DNA of 64,000 nt from Pseudomonas versuta (GTDB taxonomy: Bacteria; Pseudomonadota; Gammaproteobacteria; Pseudomonadales; Pseudomonadaceae). The DNA is taken from positions 558,001 through 622,000 of the forward strand of contig NZ_CP012676.1 of assembly GCF_001294575.1 (NCBI RefSeq), read 5' to 3'. The notes below the pieces were generated by a model. It did not search any database. It was not told the origin of the DNA and saw only the letters and a program-made list of their open reading frames with translations. Shown one piece after another: positions 37,997 through 47,778 of this stretch (positions are counted from its first letter, which is position 1; each line of letters begins with the position of its first letter). Made by a program: the position numbers and the translations under genes.

Positions 37997-40432
37997 TTAG
38001 AAGTCCCAGCGGGTACTGACCATCACATTGCGCGGGTCACCGTAATACGACGAGTTATAGAAACCGATATTGGTGTAGTACGACTTGTCGAACACGTTGT
38101 TCAGATTGACGGTGGCCGATAGGTTTTTCGTAAGCTGGTAGCGAGCCATCAGGTCAACCAGCCAGTACGGATCTTGTGAAAACTTCTCCTCGACCCCGCC
38201 TTTATTCCAGTTGGTCAGCATTTGCCAGCCCGTACCCTGCCAGCGAACCCCGCCGCCCAGCGTCAGCTTGTCGAGGTCGCCGGTCAGCTTGTAGCTGGTG
38301 TACAGATTAATTTGATCCTCGGGCTCCCACGTCGATACCTTTTTACCGCTCTGATCACGGCTGATCTTGTGCGTGTAGCCCGCCTGCAACTGCCAGCCGG
38401 GCATAAGTTCGCCAGAAATTTCTGCTTCGTAGCCTCTGGTTTTGGCTTTGATGCCTTTATAGGCGTACTCAATGTCCGGATTGGTCGGATGGGCGTTATA
38501 GACAGTGTCTGCTTCTGGCCGGTTGTCCTGATGAACCTCGAAGTAGGCCAGGCTTGAATTCAGGCGGCCATCAAAGAACTCGCCTTTCAAGCCCAGCTCA
38601 TAGTTGGTGCCTTCATCGGGCTCAAGCATCTTGTTGTCGCGATCGCGGTAATAGGACTGCGGCAAAAAAATTTCGGTATAGCTGGCGTAGGCGGAAATAT
38701 TTTCGTTGATGTCGTAGATCACCCCGGCATAGGGCAGCACCTTACCGGTGTCTTTGGCATGGCTGGTGCCCGTCAGGGTGTAATCGGCCACGCGCGTACC
38801 GAGCATTAGCGTCAGATCATCGGTGAGACTGAAGCGCCCGGTCATGTAAGTACCGGTCTGGCGCGTTGTTTCATCGTTGTAGGAGGTTACGTTGCCCCAG
38901 TCCGGTTCGAGGCTGTCGCCATCCCAGTTGTAGTAGTCATAGGCGTTGTCGACCATTTTGGCGTTGGTGTAGTCCTTGCCGGTCCAGTGCGACTTCGCTA
39001 CCGAGCCGCCGATCACCAATTGATGTTCGCGCCCCAGCAAGCTGAATGGACCGCTGGCAAACAGGTCACCACTGTCGCTGACGTATTCGCCGGTGTACTT
39101 GCGGGCCAGCATTGGCGCCAGTCCGGTGTTCACGTCCGGGTCCAGCAGCGCGCCGAGCGGTGCGTTATAGCCGTTGACCTGGTGGTTGTACTGGCCTTTG
39201 AGTACCCAGCCGTTATCAAAGCTGTGCTCCAGGGTTGAAAAAACCGTGCGCGTGTATTGCTCCCAACTGCTCCATTTCGCGCCGTTGTTGAATGAGCGAG
39301 GGGTGCTGATGCGCTCGCCGGCGGAGTTGAACAGTGAGGCACTGCCCGACCAGCTGGAGCCTTTTGGGTGGTTGTTCTGATAATCGGCGCCAAGAGTCAG
39401 CAGGGTGTCCGGCGTCAGGTCCACTTCCAGGATGCCGTAGTAAACCTCGCTATCGCGCTTGTAGTGGTCCATGAACGAGTGTTTGTCCTGATAGGCCGCC
39501 ACGGCCCGGCCCCGCACATTGCCGCTTTCGGTCAGCGGCCCGCTGACGTCGATCCCCGAGCGGTAGTTGTCCCAGGACCCTGCGCCCACATCCACATGGG
39601 CCTTGAACTCGCGGGTCGGTTTTTTGCGCACCATATTGATGGTGCCGCCGGGGCCGCCTGCACCGGTGAGCAACCCGGTTGCACCCTTGAGAATTTCGAC
39701 CCGGTCGTAAATGGCAGTGTCAGTCAGGGTGTGCCCGGCAGAGTATTGCGGGTCTTGCAGGATCGGAATGCCGTCGTACTGAAAGTTCTTGATCGCAAAA
39801 CCGCGCGAATAGTAGCTGGTGCGATCACTGTCATAGGTTGCAACGGTGATGCCGGGGGTATGACGCATCACATCATCGATCGAGTTGAGACCGAAATCGT
39901 CCATTGCCTGGCGCGTGACCACCGATATCGACTGTGGGGTTTCGCGCGGCGTCAGCACCATGCGCGTGGCAGTAGCGATGCTGCCGGGCGTGTAGGAGCC
40001 CGAACCTTCTGTGATGGTGCCCAGCTGGTTGGCGCTGACTTGCGTGGCGCCCAGTTCCAGACTTCCGCCCGCCGCAGGCAACGCATCGAGCGTGTAGCCA
40101 TTGGCACTTTTAACGGCGGTATAGCCGCTGTCGTGCAACAAGGCTTCGAATCCGGAATGCTCGTTGTAGGTGCCGTGCAGCCCGGGTGTCGTCAGTCCGT
40201 CCAGGCTGGCGGACTGAAAAATAATCGCTACCCCGGCCTGTTGTGCAAAGCGATTCAGGGCACTGCTCAGCGGGCCGGATGGAATGTCATAGGTTTTCGA
40301 TGCCGACTGCGCCTGAGCGACGGTGCTGCACAGCACGCCACTCGCCGAAGCGACAATCAAGTGAATGGCCAGGGCCAGCGGGGTGCAGGCCCGCGGGCTA
40401 AAACGCCCGCGAGGGTGGGAGGAAGTCAGCAT
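37997..40432 (-). CDS. TonB-dependent siderophore receptor with signalling domain
   Basis: The 811-residue outer-membrane receptor has a signal peptide ending near AQA (about residue 42), an STN signalling domain (about 48-115, YDIPSGPLSSALNRFAQQAG), a plug (about 160-270) and a 22-strand barrel ending in aromatic Phe (VSTRWDF). The STN domain touches the FecR protein, passing ligand binding to the sigma factor encoded upstream. The overall pattern is that of ferric-hydroxamate, ferrioxamine or pyoverdine receptors; the exact siderophore cannot be read from sequence. No siderophore-synthesis genes are near, so it may take up foreign siderophores. Confidence 0.95.
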   Translation of the reverse strand: MLTSSHPRGRFSPRACTPLALAIHLIVASASGVLCSTVAQAQSASKTYDIPSGPLSSALNRFAQQAGVAIIFQSASLDGLTTPGLHGTYNEHSGFEALLHDSGYTAVKSANGYTLDALPAAGGSLELGATQVSANQLGTITEGSGSYTPGSIATATRMVLTPRETPQSISVVTRQAMDDFGLNSIDDVMRHTPGITVATYDSDRTSYYSRGFAIKNFQYDGIPILQDPQYSAGHTLTDTAIYDRVEILKGATGLLTGAGGPGGTINMVRKKPTREFKAHVDVGAGSWDNYRSGIDVSGPLTESGNVRGRAVAAYQDKHSFMDHYKRDSEVYYGILEVDLTPDTLLTLGADYQNNHPKGSSWSGSASLFNSAGERISTPRSFNNGAKWSSWEQYTRTVFSTLEHSFDNGWVLKGQYNHQVNGYNAPLGALLDPDVNTGLAPMLARKYTGEYVSDSGDLFASGPFSLLGREHQLVIGGSVAKSHWTGKDYTNAKMVDNAYDYYNWDGDSLEPDWGNVTSYNDETTRQTGTYMTGRFSLTDDLTLMLGTRVADYTLTGTSHAKDTGKVLPYAGVIYDINENISAYASYTEIFLPQSYYRDRDNKMLEPDEGTNYELGLKGEFFDGRLNSSLAYFEVHQDNRPEADTVYNAHPTNPDIEYAYKGIKAKTRGYEAEISGELMPGWQLQAGYTHKISRDQSGKKVSTWEPEDQINLYTSYKLTGDLDKLTLGGGVRWQGTGWQMLTNWNKGGVEEKFSQDPYWLVDLMARYQLTKNLSATVNLNNVFDKSYYTNIGFYNSSYYGDPRNVMVSTRWDF

Positions 40433-40508
40433 GGGAAGCGCAGTCCTTTAGGGTTCTATGTATCTACCTTGACGGCTGGCTCGAAAAAAGCGGAAGGAAT
40501 GCGAATAA

Positions 40509-41495
40509 TTATTTTTTAGATTGCTGTGGCTGACTGATCACCACCAGCCACGGGCTGTAGGTTCTAATCGTCACAGGCAGGGTTTCAGCAATCAATTGCA
40601 GAGCCCGATCGGTGTTATCCAGCGGCAATACGGCCGATACGCGCAAATTGGCCAGGGCCTGGCGGTCAAATTGAAGATGGCCGCGACGATGCCGGGAGAT
40701 TTCATCGAGCACCAGAGTCAGAGGCTGGTTATCGACCACCATTTGGTGGCGCCGCCATGCCTCATCAATGCTGGCGGGGTCGAGCGTACCTGACAGTTCT
40801 ACCGAGTCGCGGCGGATCAGCGCCCGGGAGCCAGTACCGACCTCCAGTGTCTGTTGTTCGTCAGCGCTTTGTGCGGCGACCCGCGACTGCAGCATGCTCA
40901 AAACAGTGGTGTCGGGCAGATGTTTGACCACGAAGCGGGTGCCCAGCGCACGCATGCTGCCCTCGTCGGTCTGCACGATAAAGGGGCGTGCGTTGTCGTG
41001 AGCAACTTCCACCAGCACTTCTCCTTGCAGTAACTCGATGCGCCGTTCCTGGTCGTTGAAATGCACATTCACTGCACTGGTACCGCTGAGGGTGATCGTT
41101 GAGTTGTCGGCCAGACGCAGGCTTTTCCAGTCATTGGGGCCGGTCCTGATATCGGCCATCCACTGCTTTGGATACTGGCTTTGCAATATCAGTGCGCTCG
41201 GTAATCCCAGGCAGCCGGCAATCAGTAGTGCGCGCAATACCCGCTTGCCTCGGCCAGCAGGTTTGCCCCTGCTAAAGGCGGCGGTGAGTGCGGCATTGGC
41301 CGGGGCGGATTGCCCGCGCAATGACTGCAGGCGACTGATCACATCTTGCATGCGCAAGGCAGCGGCAGCGTGCTGCGGACTTTGTCGCTTCCAGCACTCG
41401 AACTGCAGGCGCAGCGCATCATTGGTGCTTTCTTCATGCAGTTGAAGAATCCACTCGGCGGCTTGCTCGTCAATGGTCGGATGCGGCACGGGCAT
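40509..41495 (-). CDS. FecR-family anti-sigma factor / signal transducer
   Basis: The 328-residue inner-membrane protein has an N-terminal cytoplasmic part with the AAEWILQLHEESTNDALRL-like sigma-binding region and the DUF4880 pattern FECWKRQSPQHAAAA. One membrane helix follows (about 83-103), and then a periplasmic FecR domain (ADNSTITLSGTSAVNVHF; LLQGEVLVEVAHD). The C-terminal STN-like part receives the receptor's signal. It begins two bases after the sigma-factor stop and is followed by the receptor, giving the standard order sigma-FecR-receptor. Confidence 0.95.
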   Translation of the reverse strand: MPVPHPTIDEQAAEWILQLHEESTNDALRLQFECWKRQSPQHAAAALRMQDVISRLQSLRGQSAPANAALTAAFSRGKPAGRGKRVLRALLIAGCLGLPSALILQSQYPKQWMADIRTGPNDWKSLRLADNSTITLSGTSAVNVHFNDQERRIELLQGEVLVEVAHDNARPFIVQTDEGSMRALGTRFVVKHLPDTTVLSMLQSRVAAQSADEQQTLEVGTGSRALIRRDSVELSGTLDPASIDEAWRRHQMVVDNQPLTLVLDEISRHRRGHLQFDRQALANLRVSAVLPLDNTDRALQLIAETLPVTIRTYSPWLVVISQPQQSKK

Positions 41496-41497
41496 GG

Positions 41498-42016
41498 TCA
41501 GGTGTCCAGGCTATGGCTGCAGTGCAGCAAAGCCTGCATCAGGTACTTGCGCACCGTACGATCAGACAGCGCCAGTTGCCGGGCGATCTCGCTCTGTTTC
41601 AAGCCATCGAGGTAATACAGGACAAAGGCCTGGCGAACCTTGTCCTGCATACCTTCCAGAATGAACGCGATGTGTTCGAGTGCTTCCAGCGTGGTGAGGA
41701 TCTGCTCGGGTGATTGAAAGCCTTCGAGGGCGTGTGCGGTCAGCGCAAGTTCTTGCAGGTAGGCGTTTTCGATGTGTTTGCGCCGCACCTGATCAATGAT
41801 AAGGCGGCGTGCGGTCGTGCTCAAAAACGCCCGGGGCTCGCGCAGGGTGGCGACCGACTCGCGGGCGTTGAGAATTCGGGTAAAGGTGTCTTGTGCCAGG
41901 TCTTCGGCATTCCGGGCGCAGCCGAGTTTTCTTCGCAGCCAGCCAAACAGCCAGCCGTGATGCTCGCAGTACAGATTGGAAATCGCGGCCTGGAACGCAG
42001 GTTCACCCGTAGACAT
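41498..42016 (-). CDS. ECF sigma factor, FecI type
   Basis: The 172-residue sigma-70 relative has region 2 (NLYCEHHGWLFGWLRRKLG; NAEDLAQDTFTRIL) and region 4 (VRQAFVLYYLDGLKQSEIA; LALSDRTVRKYL) with a short linker. It should direct RNA polymerase to the promoter of the downstream receptor when the siderophore is bound. A Fur-box-like palindrome lies about 25 nt upstream of its start, so iron starvation is the probable on-switch. Confidence 0.94.
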   Translation of the reverse strand: MSTGEPAFQAAISNLYCEHHGWLFGWLRRKLGCARNAEDLAQDTFTRILNARESVATLREPRAFLSTTARRLIIDQVRRKHIENAYLQELALTAHALEGFQSPEQILTTLEALEHIAFILEGMQDKVRQAFVLYYLDGLKQSEIARQLALSDRTVRKYLMQALLHCSHSLDT

Positions 42017-44525: not shown

Positions 44526-45509
44526 TTATTCGGTGGAGTGGATATGCCCGAACAACTCCTGGGCAAAGCGCACGCGTTCTTGCGCAGTTTCCTGGATGCC
44601 TTTGGCGGCCAGCTCTTCAAGGTGGGCTTCTACTGCGTGGGTGCGCAGCGTCAGACCGCAGTCGTTGGCAATCTGGATGTTCAGGCCCGGGCGGGCATTG
44701 AGCTCCAGAATCAGCGGGCCTTTCTCCTGGTCGAGCACCATGTCGACGCCGATGTAGCCCAGCCCGCACAGCTCATAGCAGCCGGCAGCCAGTTTCATGA
44801 AACCGTCCCAATTGGGCAGTTGCACGCCGTCTACCGCATTGGTGGTGTCGGGGTGTTTGCTGATGATGTTGTTCAACCAGGTGCCGCGCAGGGTCAGGCC
44901 GGTCGCCAGATCGACGCCGACCCCGATCGCGCCCTGGTGCAGGTTGGCCTTGCCGCCCGATTGACGGGTCGGCAAGCGCAGCATGGCCATCACCGGGTAG
45001 CCCATCAAAACGATGATGCGAATGTCCGGCACACCTTCATAGCTGATGCTTTTGAAGATCTGGTCCGGGATAACCCGGTACTCGATCAGTGCCCGGTCGC
45101 GGTGGCCGCCCAGGGAATAAAGGCCGGTCAGAATGCTTGAAATCTGATGTTCGATTTCATCGTGACTGATGATCTTGCCCGACACTGTACGAAAACGATC
45201 TTCGAAACGGTCGGCGATCACCAGAATGCCGTCGCCGCCCGCACCTTGTGCGGGCTTGATCACGAAGTCGTTACGGCCACCAATGATGTCGTCGAGTTTT
45301 TCGATTTCTTTCTCGGTGGAGATCACCCCGTACATTTCCGGTACGTGAATCCCCGCCTTGATGGCGCGCTCCTTGGTAATGATTTTGTCATCCACAATCG
45401 GATACAGGCTGCGCTTGTTGTACTTGAGTACGTAGTCCGCATTGCGCCGATTGATGCCCATGATGCCTCTGGCTTCCAGGGCCTTCCAGGTCTTCCAGAA
45501 GCCAAACAT
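44526..45509 (-). CDS. ATP-grasp alpha-L-glutamate ligase-like protein
   Basis: The 327-residue protein is an ATP-grasp ligase of the RimK-related subfamily (known as alpha-L-glutamate ligase-like). The ATP-binding part shows FVIKPAQGAGGDGILVI and the late LELNARPGLNIQIAN block with metal-binding Glu and Asn. Such enzymes join an amino acid or peptide to a carboxyl group; the substrate here is unknown. Its ATG overlaps the 7TM gene's stop by one base (TGATG), and the three genes form a tight operon transcribed right to left. Confidence 0.92.
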   Translation of the reverse strand: MFGFWKTWKALEARGIMGINRRNADYVLKYNKRSLYPIVDDKIITKERAIKAGIHVPEMYGVISTEKEIEKLDDIIGGRNDFVIKPAQGAGGDGILVIADRFEDRFRTVSGKIISHDEIEHQISSILTGLYSLGGHRDRALIEYRVIPDQIFKSISYEGVPDIRIIVLMGYPVMAMLRLPTRQSGGKANLHQGAIGVGVDLATGLTLRGTWLNNIISKHPDTTNAVDGVQLPNWDGFMKLAAGCYELCGLGYIGVDMVLDQEKGPLILELNARPGLNIQIANDCGLTLRTHAVEAHLEELAAKGIQETAQERVRFAQELFGHIHSTE

Positions 45510-47041
45510 CAGGAGTCAGCCTTCATGAAGGCCTTGAAACGGATCAGCTCGGTCAGGCGGTAGCCGCGATAGCGACCCATGGCCAGCATGAAGCCCACCA
45601 GAATCAGCAGAACGGCCGGGAACGTAAACACGAAGTACACCAGTTCCGGGATGCTCATGACCAGGTACGCCAGCGTCGCGGCGAACAGCGTTCCGATTGC
45701 GACTTTCATTGCATGGCCGCCACCACGTTCTTCCCACGTGATCGACAAGCGCTCGATGGTCATGGTCAGAATCACCATCGGGAACAGTGCCACTGACAGT
45801 CCGCGCTCCAGGCCCAGTTTGTGACTGAACAGGCTGATGGCAGCTATCAGTATCACCACGAAGGTCAGTACCACGGACAGTCGCGGCAGCATTTGCAGCT
45901 TCAGGTGCTCCAGATAGGAGCGCAACATCAATCCGAGTGCCGTTATCACCGTAAACAGGATGATGCCGAACTCCAGCTGGGTTTCGCGGAACGCCAGGGC
46001 AATCAGTACCGGGGTGAACGTGCCCAGGGTCTGCAGGCCGATCAGGTTGCGCAGGACCAGAATCACCAGCACACCAATCGGGATCATCACCATGATCATG
46101 AACGTTTGCTGGGTTTGCAGTGGCAGGCCGTACAGCGAGTACTCAAGGAAGTTGGCGTCGGTGTTCTCGTCCGTCAGCTTGGCCAGGCGGATGGCGTTCA
46201 TTTCACTGTTGTTCAGGCTGAACGTCACGTTCGGCTTCTTGCCACCATCCACGGTGACCATGGGTTCGTCACCGATCCACCACAGCAGGCGGTCGGACGG
46301 CAGGCCTTGCTCGCCTGTTTCCGGATTGAAATACAGCCAGTCATTCCCGTTGAAGCTGCGCAGCCACAGTTCAGGGTTCTGCGGCTGATCGGCTACCAGG
46401 CGGATGGTGTGGACTTTTTCCATCGGTACGTGGGCAATCGACAGCAACAGTTCGATGACCTGGGCTTTATGCGCGGTGGACGGGTCGCCGGCCAACAGCA
46501 GTTTGACGTTGTCATCATTGAGGTTGTTCACCCGTTTGATGGTTTCGCTGATAAAGGTCTCGACGTCGGCTGAGTGTTGGCGAATCGGTGCCAATAATGC
46601 CTCTGCAGCAATCTTTTCCGGGCCTTCAACGGCAATGCTGTCGCGGAAGACCGGGCCTTTGACCTTGGACTTGTCACCCGAATAGCGCTTGGTCAATACC
46701 AGGCGGTAGTAAAGGGTTTGCTTGCCGCTCACACGGCGTGCGGACCAGGTCACCTTGCGGTTGCCGTCAACCCGGTTGACGCTCACCCCGTAGTTATTGG
46801 AAATGAAGCTTTCGTTCAGGCTGACGTAGTCGCGGTTGAGAGGCGGCACGAACATCTGAATCTTGACCGGGTCTTTTGAGCTGGCAACAAACTCGACTTT
46901 GGCATCGATGTTCCACAGGTCGTCGGTTGCGTCTTCGGTCACAGGAATGCCGAGAGCAAAAATCTGATAGGCAGTAATCGAAATGCCCAGCACCACAAGG
47001 ATGGTGATCAAGATTTTCAGGTGAAGGGTTAGGGCGCGCAT
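45509..47041 (-). CDS. 7TM protein with inactive transglutaminase-like periplasmic domain
   Basis: The 510-residue membrane protein has one N-terminal helix (residues 8-28), a periplasmic transglutaminase-like domain (about 100-265) lacking an evident catalytic Cys-His-Asp set, and about seven helices from 310 to 500. This matches the families called inactive transglutaminase and 7TM-transglutaminase. It starts five bases after the protease gene and is overlapped by the ligase gene. It may present the ligase's product to the periplasm or act as a receptor for it; this is inferred from fused order and topology. Confidence 0.88.
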   Translation of the reverse strand: MRALTLHLKILITILVVLGISITAYQIFALGIPVTEDATDDLWNIDAKVEFVASSKDPVKIQMFVPPLNRDYVSLNESFISNNYGVSVNRVDGNRKVTWSARRVSGKQTLYYRLVLTKRYSGDKSKVKGPVFRDSIAVEGPEKIAAEALLAPIRQHSADVETFISETIKRVNNLNDDNVKLLLAGDPSTAHKAQVIELLLSIAHVPMEKVHTIRLVADQPQNPELWLRSFNGNDWLYFNPETGEQGLPSDRLLWWIGDEPMVTVDGGKKPNVTFSLNNSEMNAIRLAKLTDENTDANFLEYSLYGLPLQTQQTFMIMVMIPIGVLVILVLRNLIGLQTLGTFTPVLIALAFRETQLEFGIILFTVITALGLMLRSYLEHLKLQMLPRLSVVLTFVVILIAAISLFSHKLGLERGLSVALFPMVILTMTIERLSITWEERGGGHAMKVAIGTLFAATLAYLVMSIPELVYFVFTFPAVLLILVGFMLAMGRYRGYRLTELIRFKAFMKADS

Positions 47042-47046
47042 TTCAA

Positions 47047-47583
47047 TTACTCTGCGGTTTGAGCGTTAGCGACGCAGGCAGGTTTGCCAGCAGCGTATTT
47101 AAGACTTGGGTCGACCAGCGCATCAAAGCGCTTGAGTGCTTCGGAGCCGATCAATAACGGGTATTGGAACGCACTTCTATCAGTCAAGTTCACTTCTATG
47201 GTGCGTAAAGCCTTGCCCATGCAAATTTCCAGGGCAATCACAGGGCGCGAGGTGTAGTTCTTGTCAGCCTGGGGATCGTAGTCGCCCGAGCGGCGCTTGA
47301 TCTTGCTGACCCGCGCCAGTGGGCGTTCGATGGGGTGCGAATGGGCGTCATCAATGGCCAGATAGAAGCGTACCCAGCTCTCTCCGTCACGTTTGAAACG
47401 CTTTATGTCACGGGCACTGAGGGACGCGGTTTTGGCGCCGGTGTCGAGTTTGGCGGCCACTTGCAGATCAATGCCCGCCAGTTCGGCGTATTCATTGAGG
47501 CCGTACACGGTCTTTTCGCCACCAAGGCTCAAGCCCGGTACGCACAGCAGACAAAGGAGGGTATAGAGGGGGAAAAATTTCAT
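47047..47583 (-). CDS. Retropepsin-like aspartic protease (RimB/'ATP-dependent zinc protease' family)
   Basis: The 178-residue protein has a signal peptide (MKFFPLYTLLCLLCVPGLSLG) and a single-domain aspartic protease fold with Asp47 in KLDTGAKTASL and the later YPLLIGSEALKRF block. The common label 'ATP-dependent zinc protease' does not fit: no ATP or zinc motif is visible. It should act as a dimer in the periplasm. ATG 47583 is chosen over an in-frame codon at 47607, as it places the signal peptide at the N-terminus. First gene of the three-gene operon. Confidence 0.9.
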   Translation of the reverse strand: MKFFPLYTLLCLLCVPGLSLGGEKTVYGLNEYAELAGIDLQVAAKLDTGAKTASLSARDIKRFKRDGESWVRFYLAIDDAHSHPIERPLARVSKIKRRSGDYDPQADKNYTSRPVIALEICMGKALRTIEVNLTDRSAFQYPLLIGSEALKRFDALVDPSLKYAAGKPACVANAQTAE

Positions 47584-47778
47584 AAATCGGGGCGCGGTCT
47601 CTTGCAATCTTCAGTTCAAGGCACTGGCAGTACAGAGCAAGTTTCCTCGTGCGGCTGCCCCCGGAAGAGGGCAGGGCGGATGCGGGCGGCATTCTAACAT
47701 GAAGGTTACATGGCGCTAGCGTTGAGGCACTTTGACCGGGGCCTGCGGGCTGTCGATTCAACTAAGGTCGTACGGGCT

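Follow-up and report, generated by a model that had tools for sequence, protein, structure and literature searches.

The rloABC operon of Pseudomonas versuta and a possible role of RloB and RloC in making and exporting an acidic peptide

We analysed a window of 64,000 nucleotides (nt) from Pseudomonas versuta (contig NZ_CP012676.1, positions 558,001 to 622,000; this one contig of 5.15 megabases makes up the genome), in which three closely packed genes encode a secreted protease, a membrane protein and an ATP-grasp protein. There is hardly any doubt that this trio is the rloABC operon of Pseudomonas, and all three products pass the cut-offs of curated models (RloA1, RloB and TIGR02291). For the function of the operon we put forward, with confidence evenly balanced for and against, the reading that RloC and RloB form a synthase-exporter in the membrane, its product being an acidic peptide that RloA removes. 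We are led to this reading because the related RimK and RimB enzymes make poly-glutamate, because RimK and RloC share ATP-grasp residues and because the published epistasis between the rlo genes fits it.

The trio is already known, being covered by NCBIfam models and having been published in June 2025 by Lormand et al. (mBio 2025, PMC12239564), who named the operon rloABC and described the RloA proteases as secreted retropepsins; a sequence-only reading of the window, which had proposed an undescribed pathway, is superseded on this point. P. aeruginosa has three secreted RloA proteins besides RimB, and a PA14 mutant without all three dies or fails in low-salt medium, a defect that sucrose partly rescues; deletion of rloB or rloC restores low-salt growth fully and the other defects partly (PMC12239564). 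In the same work, RloA cut reporters carrying 8 or 10 glutamates and not those carrying six or fewer, and it also cut the RimB substrate in vitro; no genome-encoded substrate of RloA was found, and the authors left the roles of RloB and RloC open (PMC12239564). The window carries the same three genes in the same order as P. aeruginosa, and its RloA keeps the residues that contact poly-glutamate. The two differ in their protease complement: the window's own genome has three PF05618 genes (rloA, rimB beside rimK and one further gene with a signal-like start), compared with three secreted RloA and RimB in P. aeruginosa.

The closest biochemical precedent is the RimB-RimK pair of Pseudomonas, which makes free poly-alpha-L-glutamate in vitro with chains of up to 28 residues, or 36 at pH 9, and low amounts in cells (PMC11957791). 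Like the rlo system, this pair combines a retropepsin with an ATP-grasp glutamate ligase; unlike it, the pair is cytoplasmic, has no membrane partner and acts on RpsF. The window's own genome has a separate rimB-rimK pair. The window's rloC (44526..45509, minus strand) encodes an ATP-grasp protein of 327 residues from the alpha-L-glutamate ligase-like family, with its ATP-grasp domain at 44628..45449 (minus strand), as placed by Pfam and alignment. In Pfam, RloC matched PF14397 (ATPgrasp_ST) with an expectation value (E) of 3e-97 and, more weakly, PF08443 (RimK; E 5.8e-10, 39.5 bits against a cut-off of 21), and in NCBIfam it reached 572.6 bits for TIGR02291 (cut-off 314.2). Residues K85, D162, R164, N189, L190, H191, D256, E269, N271, P274 and G275 were identical in 27 aligned RloC rows and in the RimK of the same genome, the RloC of locus L013 and some overlapping frames having been left out of the alignment. 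Only two solved chains, both of RimK type, matched RloC; the matches covered some 30 residues each, with E values of 7e-4 and 8e-4. On the basis of this kinship and of the in vitro specificity of RloA, the proposed product would probably be polyglutamate.

In the mechanism we propose, RloC would spend cytoplasmic ATP on assembling an acidic peptide, most likely poly-alpha-L-glutamate, where the membrane domain of RloB faces the cytoplasm. RloB would carry the chain into the periplasm and hold it through its transglutaminase-fold domain, and RloA, alongside a second secreted-looking copy encoded elsewhere in the genome, would cut it into short pieces. Without RloA, long polyanions would accumulate between the membranes, and the many counter-ions that they retain in low salt would make the envelope swell or become damaged; in cells lacking RloB or RloC, the supply of chain would stop. 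Low-salt death in the absence of RloA would fit such a trapped polyanion, the counter-ion pressure being greater in dilute medium. A sister clade keeps the transglutaminase triad and carries, beside the same core, genes for a TPR protein and an outer-membrane barrel, through which the chain would leave the cell.

The protease gene rloA (47047..47583, minus strand) encodes 178 residues from its ATG, an alternative TTG at 47607 also being open. Its product, a retropepsin-like aspartic protease, matched PF05618 (E 2.3e-46) in Pfam and NF052262 (RloA1; 342.6 bits, cut-off 280) in NCBIfam, and its residues 21-178 aligned with the solved P. aeruginosa chain PDB 9g58 (E 2.5e-87). The N-terminus (47521..47583, minus strand) resembles a signal peptide by eye, the hydropathy also having been viewed. 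The DTGA motif (47434..47445, minus strand; KLDTGA in context) contains the catalytic aspartate D47, equivalent to D48 in the P. aeruginosa numbering, which runs one higher; K45, R91, R113 and R136 correspond in the same way to the published poly-glutamate contacts K46, R92, R114 and R137. The sequence-only reading was right to doubt the common 'zinc protease' label for this gene, the P. aeruginosa orthologue being a retropepsin-like protease whose chain has been solved as 9g58 (PMC12239564). The further secreted-looking PF05618 protease of the genome (G000:C1:4931521-4931946, locus L003) appears RloA2-like by eye.

The membrane protein, encoded by rloB (45509..47041, minus strand), is an inner-membrane protein of 510 residues, composed of an N-terminal helix, a transglutaminase-like region and a 7TM domain, and scored 1071.8 bits against NF052267 (cut-off 900) in NCBIfam. 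The Transglut_i_TM region (residues 25-184; 46490..46969, minus strand; PF14400, E 4.3e-47) has Thr, Glu and Asn at the columns of the Cys-His-Asp triad, so that the part which had been read from sequence as transglutaminase-like lacks the triad of an active transglutaminase. The 7TM_transglut domain (residues 260-505; 45527..46264, minus strand) matched PF14402 with E 7e-99; in a simple hydropathy count, one segment lay at the N-terminus and six fell within the membrane domain, for which the family name implies seven helices. The nearest RloB proteins among 80 loci listed are 98% identical and come from Pseudomonas paraversuta, P. psychrophila and a Pseudomonas sp. The genes for the retropepsin, RloB and RloC are packed in rloABC order, with 5 nt between rloA and rloB and a 1-nt overlap of rloB and rloC within TGATG; the coordinates and the Pfam and NCBIfam matches thus agree with the gene identities and the spacings of 5 and -1 nt first given for the trio.

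Conservation of the trio across related genomes, which the sequence-only reading had named as a point on which it could fail, was found in a sample of 143 genomes of the same class, 26 of which matched PF14402. One of these matches (genome G077) proved to be a sodium/proline symporter and was dropped, leaving 26 loci in 25 genomes. RloA and RloC matches lay near RloB on the same strand in 19 of the 26 loci; RloC alone was beside RloB in four, RloA alone in one (with RloC on another contig) and neither in two, six of the 26 loci being judged by hit coordinates only. RloC exceeded the TIGR02291 cut-off in 20 genomes, and RloB was present in all 20. We judge the association of the trio to be far beyond chance.

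We also typed 45 RloB loci by profile searches over open frames: that of the window, 19 of 20, 14 of 20 and all 10 from three fetched sets and one plasmid locus, the stretch of the rejected symporter (L016) having been dropped here as well and the other six of the second set having been retrieved on account of CapC. The set leaned towards divergent loci and is not a random sample; of 48 matching genomes from one search, the surroundings of RloB were inspected in 16. Twenty-nine of the 45 loci, from several families, carry the RloA-RloB-RloC trio. Nine (L011, L012, L013, L128-L132 and L155) have RloB, RloC and a TPR gene without RloA beside them, and in two (L133 and L134) a barrel-like gene, identified by other means than the barrel profile, precedes the membrane part and RloC. 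The remainder comprise one locus with RloB and RloC without RloA (L024), two with RloB without RloC (L014 and L015), one archaeal fusion (L154) and one locus that ends at a contig edge (L162).

In eight of the nine TPR-type loci a barrel gene follows the TPR gene; in the ninth, L130, the contig ends inside the TPR gene, and a barrel gene, if there is one, would lie past that end. In the seven complete TPR-type loci the TPR frames are 626-667 residues long and hydrophobic for a stretch close to the N-terminus, whereas the barrel frames have 392-403 residues with signal-like starts; the barrel of L155 has 372. The last residue is aromatic in eight of ten barrels or barrel-like proteins (not in L012 and L132). 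The genes lying further away are not the same in the loci inspected. Charge was considered as a hint of anionic cargo and not used, the TPR proteins being net positive in seven of seven and the barrels mixed. The barrel-like genes of L133 and L134 matched DUF481 (0.026) and OMP_b-brl (0.018), respectively, in Pfam. In the genome of L133 (G266), a rimB-rimK pair (L133:4674-6067), preceded by an ftsK gene, stands immediately before the set of barrel-like gene, membrane part and RloC; we did not use this pair as evidence, since in G223 (L134) the pair lies elsewhere. Export-type partner genes (TPR, barrel) were found only in relatives, none being present in the window itself. Such neighbours, judged by gene content, suggest a polymer exporter.

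The state of the transglutaminase region largely follows this division of neighbourhoods. By alignment columns, the Cys-His-Asp triad is kept in all nine TPR-type RloB, and the Cys is absent in all 31 rows of PF14400-type RloB (22 of 22 and 9 of 9 in two alignments) and also in both solo RloB (L014 and L015); L133 and L134 lack the domain. The first eight TPR-type RloB form one branch with a support of 100/100, in a tree that does not include L155 and in which long branches connect them with the two solo RloB, a reason for caution. A PF05618 search of 13 genomes, eight of them TPR-type, found no match in five of the eight and only RimB-like proteins without a signal-like start in two, some TPR-type genomes being incomplete and that of L155 lying outside the search; the eighth, G033 (86% complete, 6% contamination), has both systems. 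The genomes of L133 and L134 have neither the transglutaminase domain nor a secreted RloA. What the comparison shows is a core that occurs in fused form, that has other partner genes and that has no RloA beside it when it keeps the triad; L024, L133, L134 and L159 do not fit a neat exchange of one system for the other. We do not claim the TPR-barrel version as new in print; a comparative paper on amidoligases by Iyer et al. in 2009 may already cover some of these neighbourhoods.

Two fusions bear on the geometry of the system. In L155, from another class of the phylum, a single frame of 833 residues combines an intact transglutaminase triad, the membrane part and the ATP-grasp domain, and is followed by TPR and barrel frames. 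On a plasmid of Halobacterium sp. DL1, a frame of 584 residues (L154:8812-10566) matched both PF14402 (86.4 bits, cut-off 25) and PF14397 (201.9 bits, cut-off 31.4) and gave no transglutaminase hit; it is unannotated in the plasmid table, is flanked in the stretch by genes annotated as transposases and has no retropepsin annotated near it. Together, these two differently built fusions point to RloC acting on the side of RloB that faces the cytoplasm, and the C-terminal end of the RloB membrane part would face the cytoplasm because the ATP-grasp domain needs cytoplasmic ATP. The layout of a cytoplasmic ligase, a membrane protein and a periplasmic protease, already drawn in the sequence-only reading, fits the published epistasis, the fusions and the export-type neighbours; of its two options for the 7TM protein, the present findings favour 'moves'. 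Its mechanism thus survives in layout and identities, loses its undescribed status and its transglutaminase triad, and is here sharpened to a synthase-exporter with two fates for the product. A more general form of the proposal, which we hold to be somewhat less likely than not, is that synthase-translocases driven by an ATP-grasp enzyme make up a family so far unrecognised, with RloB-RloC as its core, that makes and threads a poly-amino acid, probably poly-alpha-glutamate, through the inner membrane, with periplasmic destruction by RloA or TPR-barrel secretion in Gram-negatives, and that exists as a single protein on at least one haloarchaeal plasmid.

Several results weigh against a synthase-exporter. 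RloC falls below the cut-off of the RimK family model (TIGR00768, 50.5 bits against 143.4), and we found no report of a measured RloC product or activity in the literature searched. AlphaFold predictions scored low, with a predicted local distance difference test (pLDDT) value of 35.0 and a predicted template modelling (pTM) score of 0.27 for RloC (36 sequences), and 38.9 and 0.22, respectively, for RloB (36 Pseudomonas sequences, the other 35 being 89-98% identical to the window RloB). Among the loci, L024 (genome G120) has RloB and RloC without RloA and without the triad, with a RimB-type protease only; L014 and L015 have RloB without RloC, L015 with a divergent RloA; and the trio locus L159 has a TPR gene directly behind rloC (L159:3412-4749) with no barrel hit. 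Because L159 has both, TPR and RloA are not strictly exclusive; this locus may be an intermediate between the two types. The barrel assignments are weak in Pfam (OMP_b-brl 5.9e-5 in L011, below cut-off; MtrB_PioB 3.7e-9 in L013; SlipAM 0.043 in L128; BBP2_2 0.061 in L131; none in L012), the profile scores of L155 are low (TPR 41 bits, barrel 85 bits), and barrel charge is mixed, six of ten being basic and four acidic. Finally, because single rloB and rloC mutants of PA14 have defects of their own (PMC12239564), the product is not simply a poison.

Of the alternatives, the one that survives best, although we think it rather unlikely, is that RloC glutamylates a particular envelope component, such as a membrane protein, a lipid or a peptidoglycan precursor, with RloB as a scaffold or flippase and RloA removing the tag. 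RimK does tag a ribosomal protein, RpsF; the cell-shape and beta-lactam defects seen without secreted RloA point to the cell wall, and Lormand et al. consider that RloA cleaves polyE peptides or polyglutamated proteins (PMC12239564). However, the 7TM and ATP-grasp frame stands alone on the archaeal plasmid with no annotated retropepsin nearby, and TPR and barrel partners are easier to reconcile with a secreted polymer than with a tag. Less probable still is that RloB is a sensor, whose transglutaminase-fold domain binds a periplasmic peptide and whose 7TM domain regulates RloC, the product staying in the cytoplasm. Sensors are commonly built from an inactive enzyme domain attached to membrane helices, which counts in favour of this idea, as does the rescue of the same defect by deletion of either rloB or rloC (PMC12239564), but the full triad is kept in nine of the 45 loci, and in three (L133, L134 and L154) the membrane part and RloC remain together without the domain. 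That the operon merely collects unrelated stress enzymes with no common substrate is very improbable, for although a biochemical link between RloB, RloC and RloA is absent from the literature consulted, the published epistasis, the finding of all three genes, across several families, at 29 of the 45 loci and the fusions of parts of RloB and RloC all speak against it.

Two known systems resemble the proposed synthase-exporter. PgsBCA/CapBCA carries out poly-gamma-glutamate synthesis and export with an amide ligase and a small membrane protein that exports the polyglutamate, and would thus work in a similar way to the proposed RloC-RloB pair; its ligase belongs to another family than RloC. Secretion of the alginate or poly-N-acetylglucosamine (PNAG) type uses a TPR protein and an outer-membrane barrel, and in the TPR-type loci TPR and barrel genes likewise stand behind a candidate membrane synthase; the difference is that the conserved set observed has no glycosyltransferase; here an ATP-grasp ligase would act as the synthase and make a peptide.

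A kinship of the RloB 7TM domain with CapC/PgsC, considered because of a motif resemblance, is not claimed. The RloB membrane part gave E 0.044 and 0.047 against the CapC profile (PF14102), and 0.01 to 0.51 with single CapC rows; among 21 control membrane proteins one, a symporter, did better (0.0091) and the other 20 gave 0.072 or more. Eight RloB proteins had no Pfam hit to CapC at E up to 10, and a search of solved structures with a CapC protein found nothing. A weak CapC hit in G349 (E 6.5e-4) was a heme A synthase-like frame by eye. Loci L122-L125 encode proteins of about 1080 residues in which two CapC domains are combined with another long part. Of these loci L122 alone was scanned: the two genes that follow had no Pfam hit, and genes for a CHASE2 protein and a response regulator come before.

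Around the trio in the window, a pabB/trpE-type (chorismate-binding) gene lies downstream on the same strand, 93 nt away, and a GntR regulator and a gene of phosphoenolpyruvate (PEP)-mutase/isocitrate-lyase type lie upstream in divergent orientation. A scan for consensus promoters found none, with 1.5 expected. At 37997-42016, beside the region, TonB-type receptor, FecR-like and sigma-70-like genes stand in a row (labelled by eye from translations). Elsewhere, a RimK-like ATP-grasp gene precedes the trio in all three loci of family f187 (L139-L141), and the scan of one of these, L141, showed this gene to be glutathione-synthetase-like, with a gene for a MATCAP-type carboxypeptidase in front of it; the Legionella adelaidensis plasmid NZ_LR134414.1 has annotated relatives of RloB and RloC. 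Among viral contigs, 31 pattern matches yielded no confirmed relatives.

In text searches of the literature, the mBio paper was the only one since 2023 to name two or more of RloA, RloB and RloC, and the only one to bring retropepsin, ATP-grasp and transglutaminase together; none of the words in its main text starts with transporter, TPR, export or capsule (PMC12239564). Elsewhere, an inactive-transglutaminase gene appears in a vesicle screen of Shewanella vesiculosa (PMC12096838), and PA1766-PA1768 were transposon hits in a suppressor screen (PMC7314104); the passages considered from PMC3482391, PMC10318531 and PMC3597751 do not mention the trio.

In P. aeruginosa, rloABC is known to influence low-salt survival, biofilm and beta-lactam tolerance. 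The fusions and export-type versions described here narrow the question of what RloB and RloC do to whether an RloC-dependent acidic peptide is found in the periplasm when secreted RloA is missing. If the proposal is correct, RloB and RloC would provide another route of polyglutamate export besides PgsBCA and a peptide counterpart of alginate-type secretion, and the low-salt phenotype would gain a physical cause.

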